From a virus, in the IMG/VR virus record IMGVR_UViG_3300028388_002801, positions 1 through 31,777 of that record: DNA of 31,777 nt, one strand, 5' to 3'. The notes below the pieces were generated by a model, which saw nothing but the letters and a program-made list of their open reading frames with translations, did not search any database and had not been told where the DNA came from. Both the position numbers and the translations under genes were made by a program. Shown here piece by piece: positions 12,033 through 31,531 of this stretch (positions are counted from its first letter, which is position 1; the number at the start of each line of letters is the position of its first letter).

Positions 12033-13832
12033 ATGTCAAAACAACAGTACCTTGGAATCGCCATCGATTACACTCGCGATTCACTTTTCGATCCTCTTGG
12101 GCTTCAGAGGATACGAGAGAGTTATATGAAAGATGACGAGATGTCCCCCCAACAACGTTTCGCCTTCGTATGCAAACAGTTCGCAACAGATGACGAACAT
12201 GCCCAACGACTGTATGAGTACACCAGCAAGCACTGGCTGTCCCTTTCTACACCAATTCTTTCTTTCGGACGATCTTCAAAAGGACTGCCGATTTCGTGCT
12301 TTCTCAACTATATCGACGATACAGCCGAAGACCTAGTAGACAATCTATCTGAGACCAACTGGCTGTCAATGAGCGGCGGCGGTGTTGGTATCGGTCTTGG
12401 GATACGAGCAAGCGATGACAAGTCAACAGGAGTGATGCCTCACCTCAAGACGTACGATGCCTCATCGCTTGCGTATCGTCAAGGCAAAACACGTCGAGGG
12501 TCATATGCGGCTTACCTCGACATCTCTCATCCAGACATCATGTTGTTCCTCGAGATGAGAAAACCAACAGGCGATCAAAACATTCGATGCCTTAACCTGC
12601 ACCATGGTGTCAACATTACAGACAGTTTCATGCAGATCATTCAGCGATGCATGAAAGATGGTGATGCCGATGATGGGTGGAACCTACGAGACCCACACAG
12701 CGGCGAAGTAAGAGAGACAGTTAGCGCCAAGGCATTGTGGCAACGAATCCTAGAGCTGCGTATGGAGACAGGTGAGCCGTTCCTCCATTTCATTGACACT
12801 AGCAACAAAGCACTGCCTAAGCACCTTGCTGACCTTGGGCTGAAAATTCACCAGTCTAACTTATGCAGTGAGATCATCCTACCAACCAGCAGCGAACGCA
12901 CTGCCGTGTGCTGTCTTTCTTCTCTCAACCTTGAGTACTACGATGCGTGGAGTCGCGATCCAATGTTCCTCCGTGACGTTGCTGAGATGCTAGATAATGT
13001 GCTGCAGTTCTTTATCGACAATGCACCCGAACCGATAGCACGAGCCAGATTCTCTGCGATGCGGGAGAGATCAATAGGGATTGGTGCACTTGGTTTTCAT
13101 GCTTACCTGCAGCGCAAAGGAATTGCGTTTGAAGGCGTGATGGCCAAGAGTGCCAACAATCGCATGTTCAAACATATACGTACACGTCTCGATGAAGTCA
13201 ATCTCGAGCTCGGAAAGATAAGAGGTGAAGCACCAGATGCAGTCGGAACTGGACTTCGATTCAGCCACCTTATGGCTGTGGCTCCTAACGCCAGCAGTTC
13301 AATTATCATGGGCAACACATCACCCTCCGTTGAGCCATACCGAGCTAATGCTTATCGGCAAGACACATTATCAGGTGCATACCTCAACAAAAACAGATAC
13401 CTAGATGCTATAATTAAAAAAATGGCACAAGACAAGCCCGCAGGTTGGTATGACGATACGTGGAGCTCGATCATTGCCAACGATGGTTCGATCCAGCACA
13501 TCAACTCATTCGACGAGCAAACCAAATACGTATTCAAAACAGCGATGGAGATCGATCAGCGATGGGTAATAGAACACGCAAGCGATCGACAACAGTACAT
13601 TGATCAAGCGCAGTCGATCAATCTGTTCTTCCGACCCAACGTCAACATTACATACCTCCATGCAATCCACTTTATGGCTTGGACCTCAGGATTGAAAACT
13701 CTGTACTATTGTCGCAGTGAGAAACTCGGCAAGGCAGACCGCGTAGCCAATCGTATCGAGCGTCAGGTAATTAAAGAGCTGGATTTAACGGCAGTTGCAG
13801 AAGGCGAGGAGTGTTTAGCGTGTCAGGGTTAG
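12033..13832 (+). CDS. nrdA: class Ia ribonucleoside-diphosphate reductase, large subunit
   Basis: Reduces ribonucleoside diphosphates to deoxyribonucleotides together with NrdB. All catalytic elements are visible: redox cysteines C89 (PISCF) and C293 or C294 (AVCCLSS), the thiyl-radical site N276-L-C278-S-E280, the radical-relay pair Y558-Y559 and the C-terminal reductant pair C594/C597 (CLAC). At 599 residues it lacks the N-terminal ATP-cone of the usual enzyme of about 760 residues, so dATP feedback inhibition is probably absent. That suits a phage needing unchecked dNTP supply. nrdB follows after 57 bases. Confidence 0.95.
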   Translation: MSKQQYLGIAIDYTRDSLFDPLGLQRIRESYMKDDEMSPQQRFAFVCKQFATDDEHAQRLYEYTSKHWLSLSTPILSFGRSSKGLPISCFLNYIDDTAEDLVDNLSETNWLSMSGGGVGIGLGIRASDDKSTGVMPHLKTYDASSLAYRQGKTRRGSYAAYLDISHPDIMLFLEMRKPTGDQNIRCLNLHHGVNITDSFMQIIQRCMKDGDADDGWNLRDPHSGEVRETVSAKALWQRILELRMETGEPFLHFIDTSNKALPKHLADLGLKIHQSNLCSEIILPTSSERTAVCCLSSLNLEYYDAWSRDPMFLRDVAEMLDNVLQFFIDNAPEPIARARFSAMRERSIGIGALGFHAYLQRKGIAFEGVMAKSANNRMFKHIRTRLDEVNLELGKIRGEAPDAVGTGLRFSHLMAVAPNASSSIIMGNTSPSVEPYRANAYRQDTLSGAYLNKNRYLDAIIKKMAQDKPAGWYDDTWSSIIANDGSIQHINSFDEQTKYVFKTAMEIDQRWVIEHASDRQQYIDQAQSINLFFRPNVNITYLHAIHFMAWTSGLKTLYYCRSEKLGKADRVANRIERQVIKELDLTAVAEGEECLACQG

Positions 13833-13889
13833 AAATATCATCAAACATGAAAGATCCATCTTTCTTTGACAACAAGTGGAGAACTAATA

Positions 13890-14870
13890 ATGGCGAGTAA
13901 GTTGACTGACCCTCGAACATACTTCAAGCCGTTCAACTATCCATGGTGTTATGACACGTGGTTAAAGCACGAGCAGTCTCATTGGCTCCACTCTGAGGTC
14001 CCGATGGCTGAGGATATAAAGGACTGGACGTCGAAGCTAACGCAAGAAGAGAAGTCGTTCCTCACCAATATCTTTCGGTTCTTCACTCAAGGCGACATTG
14101 ATGTATCAGAAGGATACGTCACTAACTACATTCCGTATTTTCCACAACCAGAGGTACGGATGATGTTGCTTGGCTTTGCAGCGAGAGAGGCTCTTCACGT
14201 TGCGGCGTACTCACACCTAATCGAAACACTGGGGATGCCAGAGTCAACGTACAACGAATTTCTTGAGTACGAAGCTATGGCCGACAAGCATCAGTACTTC
14301 ATGGACCTATCCATGACAAATGGAACGCGAGAATCCGTTGCAACCAACATTGCGGCATTTTCTGCTTTCACTGAGGGGATGCAACTGTTCTCTTCTTTCA
14401 TCATGCTGCTCAACTTTCCACGCCACGGTAAGATGAAGGGTATGGGTCAGATCGTCACGTGGTCGATCGTTGATGAGACCATGCACTGTGAAGGAATGAT
14501 TAAACTGTTCCGCCAGTACATCGAGGAGAATCTCGACATTTGGAACGATGACCTCAAAAAGCAAATCTATCAGATAGCTGAGGACATGGTAGCTCTCGAA
14601 GATAAGTTTATCGACCTCGCGTTTGCGATGGGGCCTATGGACGATCTCAATAGTGAAGACGTCAAAAAGTATATCAGATACATAGCTGACCGCAGATTAA
14701 TAAGTCTTGGTCTCAAAGGAATCTTCAAAGTGAAACGTAACCCACTGCCATGGGTCGAGGAGATGATAAACGCTCCAACACACACAAACTTTTTCGAAAA
14801 CAGAGCGACAGATTATGCACGTGGAGCATTGAGTGGTGACTGGACTGATGTATGGGGTAAGGCGTCATGA
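13890..14870 (+). CDS. nrdB: class Ia ribonucleotide reductase, small subunit
   Basis: Carries the di-iron tyrosyl radical that activates NrdA. Iron ligands are visible by position: D69 or D71, E100 and H103 (AREALHVAAY), E162 (AFTEGM), and E196 and H199 (VDETMH). Y107 sits four residues after H103, where the radical tyrosine is expected. The length, 326 aa, is normal. ATG 13890 has GGAGA upstream; a TTG at 13866 is less likely. The 3' end overlaps the zinc-ribbon gene by 4 bases. Confidence 0.95.
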   Translation: MASKLTDPRTYFKPFNYPWCYDTWLKHEQSHWLHSEVPMAEDIKDWTSKLTQEEKSFLTNIFRFFTQGDIDVSEGYVTNYIPYFPQPEVRMMLLGFAAREALHVAAYSHLIETLGMPESTYNEFLEYEAMADKHQYFMDLSMTNGTRESVATNIAAFSAFTEGMQLFSSFIMLLNFPRHGKMKGMGQIVTWSIVDETMHCEGMIKLFRQYIEENLDIWNDDLKKQIYQIAEDMVALEDKFIDLAFAMGPMDDLNSEDVKKYIRYIADRRLISLGLKGIFKVKRNPLPWVEEMINAPTHTNFFENRATDYARGALSGDWTDVWGKAS

Positions 14871-27417: not shown

Positions 27418-28326
27418 ATGGATCTCAGTCAATTCAAAAACAATGTCGCTTCAATCACAGATCTGGTTGAAGCAGCACAAACCTCTTCCCGCCCCGGCGA
27501 TGATGATCGTTTCTGGCGTCCTACTCTTGACGCAGCTAAGAACGGCTTTGCAGTCATCCGCTTTCTCCCTTCTCCTGTAGCTGATCAGCTACCATACGTA
27601 CGTTACTGGAATCATGGCTTCCAAGGACCCACTGGTCGTTGGATGATTGAGAACTGCCCAACGTCGATTGGTGGCAAGTGCCCTGTGTGCGAAGCCAACA
27701 GTATGTTGTGGGCTAAAAACACTGACGAAAGCAAGAAGATTGTTCGTCAACGTAAGCGCAAGCTGAGCTACGTCGCCAACATCATCGTACTTGAAGACAG
27801 CAAGAATCCCGAAGCTGTTGGAACGGTTAAGCTGTTCCGTTTCGGTAAGAAAATCTTCGATAAGCTGATGGACCGCATGCAGCCTGAATTCGCTGATGAG
27901 CAACCTCTTAACCCGTTCGATATGTGGTCTGGCGCAGACTTCGCTTTGAAAATTCGTGAGGTCGACGATTATCGCAACTACGATAAAAGCGAGTTTCGAG
28001 CGCCATCAGCACTGTTTGATGGCGACGAAGGGCGCTTGTCGCAGGTTGTCGACCAGCTTCACTCGATCGAAGAATGGAGTGATCCTAGCAACTACAAGTC
28101 ATATGATGAGTTGCAAACGCAGCTTAACATGACGCTTGGTGCTGCTCAGCCTACTACGGCACAAGCTCGTGACAACATTCGCGAGCAACTGGCGGCTCCT
28201 CCGGTTGGTCAGGTAGCTCAGCCTACTGCCCCGCCGAAAGCTTCTGCGCCCGAAATACCTGCGCCAGTTGAGAGCGACGATGACGACATGGCGTATTTTC
28301 AGCGCCTTGCGAATCAGAGCGAGTGA
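27418..28326 (+). CDS. 32: single-stranded DNA binding protein gp32, 302 aa
   Basis: Coats single-stranded DNA at replication forks. The zinc site is H66, C80, C88 and C91 (NHGFQG, ENCPTSIGGKCPVCEAN), matching the H/C/C/C set of T4 gp32. The N-terminal segment (1-20) would mediate cooperativity, and the C-terminal acidic tail (ESDDDDMAYFQRL) is the usual partner-binding tail. GGAG lies seven bases before the ATG. The gene ends 3 bases from the end of the opposing tail gene. Confidence 0.95.
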   Translation: MDLSQFKNNVASITDLVEAAQTSSRPGDDDRFWRPTLDAAKNGFAVIRFLPSPVADQLPYVRYWNHGFQGPTGRWMIENCPTSIGGKCPVCEANSMLWAKNTDESKKIVRQRKRKLSYVANIIVLEDSKNPEAVGTVKLFRFGKKIFDKLMDRMQPEFADEQPLNPFDMWSGADFALKIREVDDYRNYDKSEFRAPSALFDGDEGRLSQVVDQLHSIEEWSDPSNYKSYDELQTQLNMTLGAAQPTTAQARDNIREQLAAPPVGQVAQPTAPPKASAPEIPAPVESDDDDMAYFQRLANQSE

Positions 28327-28329
28327 TTA

Positions 28330-30642
28330 TCACCCACCAAAAAGACCTCGATACTCATCCATTCTATCAGTAGCCATTAGAGGACCTGCTCCTTGAATGG
28401 TCGTATTTGACACAGTAGTGTTAGAGGTCTGCGAAGGCGCCACAATTGTTGGCGCCTTCGCCATATTTGCAATCCGCATTATTTCCATTGTTTCAGAGCG
28501 CGAGGACATGCGACTAGTAGCGTCCATCGTAGTACTAGTCGCACTGATCTTAACGGCTTTATTGTCAACAGTAGACAATGAAGTAGAAGCTCCTTTTGTT
28601 ATCTGCTGCTGAACATCATTTGAAATGCCAGTGATAATCTGGGTCACACTTTTTTCAGCTAATTGTTGTGGCTGATCAACGCCCAACAATTGGTTTCTAA
28701 TGGTAATGGTGCGTTGCAGATTTTGTACTAACGAACTATACTTGGTATCCAGCGCTTCTTTAACATCTCGATCTTTTGACGCGAATGCAAGTGTACGGTT
28801 CTCGACAATTTGATCGTGCAGTGTGATCTCATTGCGGTCCAGACGTCGAAGAGCCGTGTCTACTTGCTGAGTAGACATCGGAACGGTCATGTCGATAATC
28901 GCAACGCTACGAGCAGTAGTTGATGTCATGTCATTGCTACTGCTGCTCGTAGTTGATGTCATGTCATTGCTACTGCTGCTCGTAGTTGATGTCATGTCAT
29001 TGCTACTACGAGCAGTAGTTGATGTCATGTCATTGCTACTACGAGCAGTAGTTGATGTCATGTCATTGCTACTACGAGCAGTAGTTGAGATACGATTATT
29101 CACAATGTGGTCGATCTGCTTACGCAGAATCTCTTTACTCTCCGTTGCAACGCGGCTGTCTGCGACAAGAGCTTTGAGCTGCGTCAAAGACAATTCTGAA
29201 ACGCGACTGCGGTCGACAGTCAGTTCTCTACCAAACCGGCCCGACTCGACGATCCCTTGCTCTCTTGCAAGACGAACTTGTCTCTTATTCTGTTGACGAA
29301 TGGACTCATCCAATGTTTCGTCAAGGGTTTTGTCCCCAATACCTGGTATCCATCCTAACAACTTATTCTTCATGTTGAGGACCCAGTTTTTGAACGCATC
29401 ATATACCTCGTCGAGATCGATGCCCTGTAGGAGGTCGAAGTCCAGTACTCTTTTACCGAGATCGTTGGCAAACTCAATAATTTTTCGTGGAACGAAAGTA
29501 AGCACATCGAGCAATGTGGTGGTGACAGAGTCGGTGAGGGTTGCGATCAGTTCACTGTAGTCGGTGTTTCTGATACGCTCGAGTTGCTTACGCCCAAAAT
29601 CTAAAAACATTTCGATGGGATTGTTGACAAACTGATGCATCACATCAAGCACTTTATCGAACATCTCTTCAAACGAGAACGACTCCAGAGCATCGACGAG
29701 TTTGTCCGCCCCAAACTTTCCTGTGATCCAGGAAAGCCCCGCTTTCAGCATATCGAGAGGGAGAGCGATCAGTCCCTTCAGTACACCACCGATCGCTCCT
29801 AGAGCACTATGGATTATCTTCTGGGTCAATGACCCGTCACGCTTAAACCCTTCCAAACCACCGACGACACCATCCCATATTGACATAATCACAGCAATGG
29901 GGTACGCCAACTTACCAATTACCCGCCCAACAGCCTTGGAAGCACTGAAGAATCGATGCAATCCATCAATGATAAAGTCGAACGCGTCGACAACATTGTC
30001 ACCCCATGTTAACAGCCCTCTGAACGCGTCTGTGCCCTTTGTCAGCCAACCAAAATGCCCTTTGATGGTGTTTACTATTCCTTGTATTCCAGTTGTCAAT
30101 CCGTCGAATAGACTAAGGATAGTTTTTCCAATCACGCCAGTTTTTGCATGTGCTCCACGTAGCGCCTTTCGCAACGAAACACGAATAACACGGATAGTGT
30201 CTTCGAGTCCTCGTGCAAAGGTGTTGCTCATGGTGTCGAGCGCTTTTGAAATGCGTCCATTGTTGAACACGAATTCAACCAAGCGAGTTATTCTGACAAG
30301 TCCTTGTATTACACCCTCAATGAAACCCGTTACGGCACCAGATATACCAAGTAAGGCCGCCGCCAAAAGCGGCGGGCGGAACCCTTTGCCAGAATTAGTA
30401 TCGTCTTGCTGCAACACTTGTTCTGGTGCACTTACATCTCTACGCTCAGCAGTCACCTCAAGCATGTCCATCTGCCACAGCTCGAAATTACGATTAAACT
30501 GAATCTGCAACGTCACCAATTGTGCAAGACGATCAGCAACTACCTTTACAGTTTCTTCGATGTCAAAAACAGCAGTCTCTAAAGAGCCATCGTCATTAGC
30601 TGCTCTCAAATCTTGCGTTGCTTGTTGAATTGGCGTTATCAT
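28330..30642 (-). CDS. tape-measure-like tail/baseplate hub protein, 770 aa
   Basis: A long helical protein with several hydrophobic segments (ISGAVTGFIEGVIQGLVR, AYPIAVIMSIWDGVVGG, ALGAIGGVLKGLIALPL), amphipathic helices between them and a repetitive Ser/Thr linker (about residues 518-580). Its place directly after the gp26-like gene and its frameshift extension is where a tape-measure or gp29-type hub protein would be expected. No catalytic motif is seen. It could alternatively be a tail component injected with DNA. ATGA overlap couples it to the preceding frame. Confidence 0.6.
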   Translation of the reverse strand: MITPIQQATQDLRAANDDGSLETAVFDIEETVKVVADRLAQLVTLQIQFNRNFELWQMDMLEVTAERRDVSAPEQVLQQDDTNSGKGFRPPLLAAALLGISGAVTGFIEGVIQGLVRITRLVEFVFNNGRISKALDTMSNTFARGLEDTIRVIRVSLRKALRGAHAKTGVIGKTILSLFDGLTTGIQGIVNTIKGHFGWLTKGTDAFRGLLTWGDNVVDAFDFIIDGLHRFFSASKAVGRVIGKLAYPIAVIMSIWDGVVGGLEGFKRDGSLTQKIIHSALGAIGGVLKGLIALPLDMLKAGLSWITGKFGADKLVDALESFSFEEMFDKVLDVMHQFVNNPIEMFLDFGRKQLERIRNTDYSELIATLTDSVTTTLLDVLTFVPRKIIEFANDLGKRVLDFDLLQGIDLDEVYDAFKNWVLNMKNKLLGWIPGIGDKTLDETLDESIRQQNKRQVRLAREQGIVESGRFGRELTVDRSRVSELSLTQLKALVADSRVATESKEILRKQIDHIVNNRISTTARSSNDMTSTTARSSNDMTSTTARSSNDMTSTTSSSSNDMTSTTSSSSNDMTSTTARSVAIIDMTVPMSTQQVDTALRRLDRNEITLHDQIVENRTLAFASKDRDVKEALDTKYSSLVQNLQRTITIRNQLLGVDQPQQLAEKSVTQIITGISNDVQQQITKGASTSLSTVDNKAVKISATSTTMDATSRMSSRSETMEIMRIANMAKAPTIVAPSQTSNTTVSNTTIQGAGPLMATDRMDEYRGLFGG
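28431..28461. repeat. perfect 12-bp inverted repeat inside a gene end
   Basis: GCGAAGGCGCCA (28431-28442) and TGGCGCCTTCGC (28450-28461) are perfect complements around a 7-base loop, inside the 3' end of the tail gene and about 105 bases past the end of gp32. No T-run on either side. It could block or stabilise converging transcripts. Confidence 0.6.
28911..29090. repeat. 33-bp tandem repeat, five full copies
   Basis: Five 33-bp units (28911-29075) and a partial sixth encode an 11-residue repeat, STTARSSNDMT in three units and STTSSSSNDMT in two, in the tail protein linker. Units differ in one block, gagca versus tgctc, which are reverse complements of each other. Copy number is expected to vary by slippage in steps of 11 residues. 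Confidence 0.85.
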
Positions 30643-30827
30643 TGTTTGTTTTGCTTTGCGATTTCTTCGTTTTGTTTAGTGATCCACTCATTCAGCAGAC
30701 CAACATAAACAGCTCTTTCCCAAGGCAGCATCATTTCCAACTCATGCAAACTGTAATTGTGGTGTTGCATCATAGCAAAATTGGTGCGATAGTGGTTGAT
30801 GACGCTGTCATTGGAAAGAGCTATGTA
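30639..30827 (-). CDS. -1 frame extension of the gp26-like protein, 62 codons
   Basis: Starting at the slippery run, the -1 frame reads YIALSNDSVINHYRTNFAMM, then QHHNYSLHELEMMLPWERAV and YVGLLNEWITKQ to a TGA overlapping the next gene's ATG. It looks like a conserved T4-like assembly protein. No start codon occurs before ATG 30773, and that ATG has no ribosome binding site, while the protein-like sequence extends 18 residues upstream of it. Frameshifting would make a 297-residue gp26-like fusion. Independent translation from 30773 (44 aa) is the alternative. Confidence 0.6.
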   Translation of the reverse strand, partial: YIALSNDSVINHYRTNFAMMQHHNYSLHELEMMLPWERAVYVGLLNEWITKQNEEIAKQNKQ

Positions 30828-30833
30828 AAAAAA
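30711..30833 (-). promoter_or_regulatory. candidate programmed -1 frameshift site
   Basis: Seven T's (30833-30827) give codons GAT-TTT-TTT-ACA-TAG, the canonical X-XXY-YYZ heptamer T-TTT-TTT. From four bases later, AGCTCTTTCC (30822-30813) is perfectly complementary to GGAAAGAGCT (30720-30711), extendable to 12 pairs with one U-G. ATGAC/GTCAT forms a small hairpin in the loop. The loop of about 92 bases is large for a stimulator, and spacing is slightly short. Confidence 0.55.
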
Positions 30834-31531
30834 TCCGACATGCCCTCCAGGTGAACTTTGTTATTGTGCTGGCACTTCGGACAGCGAAATTCCAGATCTT
30901 TGACTAATTTCGGTTGACTCTCAACGAAGTCTACGATTGCTTTGAATTGCGCAGACGTCATCGATTCTACAAACTGCGTAAGTTCTTCTTGAGTCGTAGA
31001 AGTAGTGTCAATTCGTTCAGCGTCCGTTAACACTGCCACAATACAGTTAACGATAATGTCAAACGCTATATCGCTTGTAATGGTGCCATCGACCGCACCC
31101 TTTTCTATCAAGGTGCGATAACGAGGGTATTGTAGCTCGACAGCCAGCTTATCAGTTAGTTGAATTGTTTGGTTTGAAGCATCGCCTTGCAAAGTGATAT
31201 CTGAAAGATCGATCTTGATGGGGATCTCATGGTCACACTGTTCTCCGGCACACTTGAATCTGAGATCGGCTGTTTCGCCTACAGATTTAGATCTAATCTG
31301 TAGGAACAAATACTCAATATCAAAAGCTGCAAGGGCGTCAACGTTGATATCAGGAACACAAGACGCTATAGTCGATGCAACGGCTTCCAACGCTGTCCGC
31401 ACATCTTGCGACTCGAACGCCAGCATCATTACTTTCTCTTCTTTTACGAGGTATGGACGAAACCGAACCATCTGACCCGTCGAGGGCACTTTTATTTGAT
31501 ATTGAGGGGTGTCATTCAATTTGGGCAACAT
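30821..31531 (-). CDS. 26: T4 gp26-like baseplate hub protein, 236 aa
   Basis: MLPKLNDTPQYQIKVPSTGQ, RFRPYLVKEEKVMMLAFES and FDIEYLFLQIRSKSVGETAD are diagnostic of the T4 baseplate gp26 family (T4_baseplate in Pfam, from memory). C94, C99, C217 and C220 (RCPKC) may bind a zinc between the core and the C-terminus. GGAG precedes the ATG. The end carries the slippery site described separately, so two products of 236 and 297 residues are expected. Confidence 0.8.
   Translation of the reverse strand: MLPKLNDTPQYQIKVPSTGQMVRFRPYLVKEEKVMMLAFESQDVRTALEAVASTIASCVPDINVDALAAFDIEYLFLQIRSKSVGETADLRFKCAGEQCDHEIPIKIDLSDITLQGDASNQTIQLTDKLAVELQYPRYRTLIEKGAVDGTITSDIAFDIIVNCIVAVLTDAERIDTTSTTQEELTQFVESMTSAQFKAIVDFVESQPKLVKDLEFRCPKCQHNNKVHLEGMSDFFT

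Follow-up and report, generated by a model that had tools for sequence, protein, structure and literature searches.

The 2022 abstract of Vladimirov et al. reportedly describes slippage as conserved in several groups of T4-like phages and T4 as using genes 26 and 51. In bacteria, the three-part dnaX cassette of E. coli consists of an upstream SD-like run, a slippery run (A_AAA_AAG, of high efficiency) and a downstream stem; the slip site of phage lambda is G_GGA_AAG. Vladimirov, Gautam and Davidson (2022, Virology 566:9, PMID 34826709) identified gp26 and gp51 of T4, together with their relatives, as tail assembly chaperones. Poly-T is given as a known -1 signal in T4-like TAC-N genes, credited to Vladimirov et al., in one article (PMC12846349), and some T4-like phages are described as having one short and one fused gene instead, with reference to the same authors, in another (PMC10885494). 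A 2016 review had described lambda-type slippage as a widely conserved property of long-tailed phages, 'except T4' (PMC5009743). In lambda gpG/gpGT, -1 slippage at a low level, close to the 3' end of the gene that lies upstream of the tape measure, yields a C-terminally extended chaperone (PMC5009743), and the chaperone genes of Pakpunavirus/Vandenendeviridae and Andersonviridae carry a conserved GTTTTT, with a poly-T -1 slip where TAC-N ends and an unannotated extension (PMC12846349). The slip mechanism in T4-like phages is, in principle, already published.

The window analyzed here, from a marine T4-like phage, covers positions 1 to 31,777 (31,777 nt) of the viral IMG/VR record IMGVR_UViG_3300028388_002801, and in it the minus strand at the end of a gp26-like gene reads ...GGC ATG TCG GAT TTT TTT ACA TAG (Table 1). 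The heptamer lies in the phase X_XXY_YYZ, two codons ahead of the gp26-type stop, and the -1 frame continues as TAC ATA GCT to a TGA at 30641-30639, which overlaps the ATG (30642-30640) of a 770-aa ORF. The residues of the extension are YIALSNDSVINHYRTNFAMMQHHNYSLHELEMMLPWERAVYVGLLNEWITKQNEEIAKQNKQ, and gp26 together with the -1 extension would make a 297-aa fusion (TAC-NC, 'GT' form). The initial annotation had pointed to the heptamer in this position and phase, to the 62-codon frame lacking a start in its first 18 residues and reading like a conserved protein from the outset, to the ATGA overlap, and to a 10-12 bp complementary pair just past the slippery run. Direct reading confirmed the heptamer and the overlap, the first start is indeed residue 19, the pair comprises 12 base pairs, and the protein conservation is seen in relatives. 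Its heptamer and downstream pair stand as parts of the signal, which nevertheless begins further upstream, with an SD-like run.

Table 1. Coordinates of the features at the gp26-51 locus of the window.
Feature	Position	Strand	Basis
gp26-like ORF, 236 aa, predicted short tail assembly chaperone (TAC-N, 'G' form)	30821..31531	-	PF12322, phrog_150, T2 gp26 alignment
SD-like GGAGGG, 9 nt upstream of heptamer, proposed 5' stimulator	30843..30848	-	conserved purine run -15..-9
Slippery heptamer T_TTT_TTT, putative tandem -1 slip site	30827..30833	-	in phase; T6 kept among relatives
TAG stop, zero frame	30821..30823	-	sequence reading
-1 extension, 62 codons, TAC-C domain, gp51-like	30642..30827	-	phrog_634, phrog_150, codon periodicity
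Long-range stem, 5' arm, starting 2 nt past heptamer (core 6 nt past)	30813..30824	-	fold, register, covariation
Long-range stem, 3' arm, inside WERAV codons	30709..30720	-	fold, register, covariation
770-aa ORF, positionally tape-measure-like, overlapping the extension at ATGA	28330..30642	-	ORF, weak similarity

The gp26-like ORF matches PF12322 (T4_baseplate, T4 bacteriophage base plate protein; 1.4e-57) and the baseplate hub profile phrog_150 (2.9e-60), of whose 282 positions it covers 7-233, and its closest gp26 relatives are those of a marine single-cell virus and of Kyanoviridae-type cyanophages. For the extension the match is to phrog_634 (5.7e-23), the 'baseplate hub assembly catalyst' family of T4 gp51; it aligns as well to positions 236-278 of phrog_150, the C-terminal part of that profile, so phrog_150 already treats both frames as one protein. 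A Pfam search returned no model covering the extension. AlphaFold2 modelled gp26 with confidence (pLDDT 93); Foldseek with this model gave no significant PDB match, and a PDB sequence search by the gp26 profile found none. Among the Foldseek PDB matches was the HK97 chaperone 2ob9, with E values of 0.54 and 1.8; these are non-significant, and common ancestry with the siphophage chaperones is therefore not established.

Phage T2 and Krischvirus MIZ3 both carry 26 and 51 as two separate, divergent genes. When aligned to the fusion profile, gp51 of T2 matches from 12 to 279 (probability 97.9, E 3e-13) and that of MIZ3 from 12 to 289 (E 1e-17), while the gp26 proteins of T2 and MIZ3 align only from 10-11 to 236, the T2 protein starting at 11. 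PHROG matches of the same proteins follow this division, with gp51 covering positions 13-280 of the 282 in phrog_150 as well as phrog_634, and gp26 covering 14-235. Within MIZ3, gp26 and gp51 also match one another (8e-14). Because gp51 aligns to the whole fusion and gp26 to the part before the shift, gp26 corresponds to the short and gp26-51 to the long chaperone, and T4 thus has two genes for the one slipped gene of this phage; the protein families and the existence of a short and a long form are the same in both. The predicted long form is a gp26 domain joined to a gp51-type C-terminal part (phrog_634).

Loci containing both parts were collected from two IMG/VR scans and 18 annotated phage records, giving 157 loci, or 57 after removal of near-duplicates. 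Across these very diverse relatives the extension lies in the -1 frame in all 157 loci, and in 155 of them (55/57 dereplicated) T6 sits close to the gp26 stop in one and the same phase; over the remainder of the gp26 genes, in-phase T6 occupies only 10 of 12,728 codon positions. In all 55 dereplicated T6 loci, T closes the codon ahead of the first Phe and TTT encodes that Phe, for which the chance, calculated from codon usage and assuming independence, is about 1e-21. The base after T6 varies (T, C, A or G), the second residue therefore being Phe or Leu; with this base free and the TTT/T codon choice fixed, it is the nucleotides that are kept and not the residues. The gp26 stop comes directly after the heptamer in 11 of the 55 loci and one codon later in 38. 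A chance origin of the heptamer and -1 frame arrangement is excluded. The heptamer, T_TTT_TTN, differs from the GTTTTT of Pakpunavirus/Vandenendeviridae and Andersonviridae, which are other phage families.

Two Ackermannviridae loci (L159 2600-2750 and L162 2600-2720) keep the -1 extension with GTTTTC or ATTTTC in place of T6, and therefore may use a different slip site. In a marine contig (L048 2492-2525) and in Pelagibacter phage Mosig (L149 1492-1525) the gp26 stop lies eight codons past the heptamer, and the short and long proteins therefore diverge over a longer stretch.

The break falls within a T run, as it would if a homopolymer error of sequencing or assembly had split one gene into two frames. 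However, the same -1 break recurs in 157 loci that include IMG/VR contigs and isolate genomes from many labs, which rules this explanation out; we consider its probability negligible. The T run is also what RNA polymerase could slip on, giving mixed mRNAs of which some encode the fusion, and it reaches T7 or longer in about half of the dereplicated loci, the window included. Yet the other half have just six T (followed by C, A or G, and never preceded by T), which is short for polymerase slippage, and its first T is invariably a third codon position, a phase needed only by tandem tRNA slippage.

Coding in the -1 frame was followed through codon-position entropy in 44 aligned, indel-free dereplicated sequences. 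Ahead of the heptamer the zero-frame third codon position is the most variable, and past it the -1-frame third position (column entropies, in the same order, of 1.70/1.42/0.89 bits before and 0.76/0.51/1.36 bits after). In the window the -1 frame has no ATG, GTG or TTG ahead of residue 19 of the extension, and the start found there has no ribosome site, while conservation of the protein reaches back to its first residues. Upstream of the slip site, -1-frame ATG codons are absent from all 55 loci, and GTG or TTG codons occur in just two. The second ORF is in the -1 frame, lacks a start of its own and is conserved as a protein.

Public records of annotated relatives (L151, L152, L153 and L154 among others) omit the extension or begin it at an internal start, and no record among the annotated relatives examined joins the two frames. 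Such records, for example those of P-RSM4 and phiN3, often annotate gp51 from an internal start just past the gp26 stop, as would be appropriate if the extension were a separate gp51-like gene translated from its own internal start, through re-initiation or through coupling with the gp26 stop, and the heptamer were incidental. The first possible downstream start, which ranges from extension codon 1 to codon 31, could be counted in favor of such a gene; however, these positions are not conserved and ribosome sites are rare, and in no relative is a start convincing as that of a separate gene. In most loci, as in the window, the conserved protein begins right past the heptamer and ahead of any start. 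A separate gene would also leave the T6 phase and the TTT codon choice without a role, and the homologous T4 gp51 is itself a full-length fusion with the gp26 domain. On these grounds we regard an independent gp51-like gene as very improbable and favor a -1 slip into the extension.

Upstream of the heptamer a purine run occupies positions -15 to -9, ending about 9 nt before it. The mean best energy of pairing with the 16S anti-SD sequence is -6.1 kcal/mol at this run versus -4.6 after synonymous codon replacement (z -7.5, with 0/1000 replacements as low), and -0.8 elsewhere in gp26. The 5' side of a dnaX-type cassette is characterized by a selected SD-like run at a distance of about 10 nt from the heptamer, and such a run is present here.

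The sequence downstream of the slip site also folds stably. A 136-nt fold of the window, of the kind suggested in the initial annotation, reaches -39.3 kcal/mol (z -3.3, with 2/200 shuffles as stable). Against synonymous variants, the 122 nt past the heptamer give a mean z of -2.6, with 28 of 44 sequences below -1.64 (window alone, -3.3), compared with gp26-internal control windows in which the mean z lies between -0.6 and -0.9 and between 6 and 12 of the 44 fall below -1.64. A hairpin in the first 57 nt alone is unremarkable (z -1.2). The complementary pair of the initial annotation belongs to a long-range stem whose register (offsets summing to 119) outdoes every other by far, with 0.73 paired against 0.55 for the runner-up and a mean of 0.36 over registers. 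Double changes in this stem occupy 34 cells versus 16.9 +/- 5.0 in shuffles (0/500), and its pairing exceeds that obtained when codons for the same residues are redealt (z 4.0 to 4.5), both comparisons retaining the relatedness of the sequences.

In the long-range stem, pairing reaches at least 90% in roughly one third of the dereplicated sequences, and the others have different hairpins. RNAalifold gave no consensus structure over the 44 sequences. A single universal stem was rejected on this account, the long-range stem covarying in part of the family only. As the hairpins are lineage-specific and there is no RNAalifold consensus, the claim that follows is one of a selected structure whose architecture differs by lineage: a stable structure lies 5-9 nt past the heptamer and is under selection. 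The locus resembles dnaX in having an SD-like run, a slippery run and a downstream structure, and is unlike dnaX in that the structure differs between lineages. An SD-like element and an RNA structure at ribosomal spacing fit slippage of the ribosome, which further lowers the case for slippage of the polymerase; we consider polymerase slippage very improbable, slightly more so than a separate gp51-like gene.

Taken together, we place a probability of about 0.92 on a ribosomal -1 slip on T_TTT_TTT that gives a short gp26 (TAC-N) and a long gp26-51 (TAC-NC) chaperone. Most ribosomes would stop at the TAG and release the 236-residue gp26-type TAC-N. A minority, paused by the SD-like run upstream and the RNA structure downstream, would slip back one base on the heptamer and complete the 297-residue gp26-gp51 fusion, the low rate of slipping setting the ratio of TAC-N to TAC-NC. 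We infer both the slippage in the cell and its rate. By analogy with lambda G/GT, the two proteins would act as chaperones in this phage: many short copies may coat the tape-measure protein, a few long copies may recruit tail-tube subunits, and both would leave before the tail is completed.

That analogy had been drawn in the initial annotation, and rightly so. The likeness is that of a gene whose chaperone product is extended at its C terminus through a -1 slip close to the 3' end; unlike in lambda, gp26 is a larger protein with a weak zinc-ribbon-like match towards its end, and no similarity of protein sequence to the lambda proteins is claimed. The further suggestion that T4-like phages use such a slip at gp26 is supported, with the conserved heptamer and -1 frame, the want of a convincing separate start and the downstream RNA structure all in its favor, yet it is not new, the mechanism being published in principle according to the sources cited above (PMID 34826709, PMC12846349).

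The gene that follows had been called tape-measure-like, a description that may hold, chiefly by position: the 770-aa ORF weakly resembles its positional counterparts in four relatives (best E 3.9e-12, within a 55-sequence set), and a family-model search gave no model that names it. In most relatives the extension is closely followed by the next ORF. Inside the 770-aa ORF is a 33-bp tandem repeat of 5.5 copies (28907-29088) encoding TTARSSNDMTS-type repeats, possibly an adjustable tape length. Three bases from the 770-aa ORF and convergent with it lies a gene for the gp32 single-strand DNA binding protein (27418-28326, plus strand). The window also carries ribonucleotide reductase genes on the plus strand, for the large (12033-13832; phrog_84, 1e-156) and small (13866-14870; phrog_86, 4e-89) subunits.

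The two cis elements, namely the SD-like run and the selected downstream RNA structure, may be undescribed. A literature search for these stimulators in this setting found none, which is weak evidence because most subscription papers were missing from it. More tentatively, and with the odds in our estimation somewhat against the proposal as a whole, T4-like marine phages may share a three-part -1 cassette in gp26-51, made up of the SD-like run, the T6 heptamer and a lineage-specific RNA structure within the conserved LSHD and PWERE codons. Both stimulators would then be undescribed and would set the chaperone ratio, and the two-gene state of T4 would be derived by duplication and loss of the slip.

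The arrangement explains a gene that is mis-annotated, with gp51 taken from an internal start, or absent in the public records of many cyanophage and pelagiphage genomes. What T4 encodes in two genes, its marine relatives would obtain as two products from a single slipped gene, and these relatives offer natural variants for studying the way in which the ratio of two tail chaperones is set by an SD-like run together with an RNA structure.
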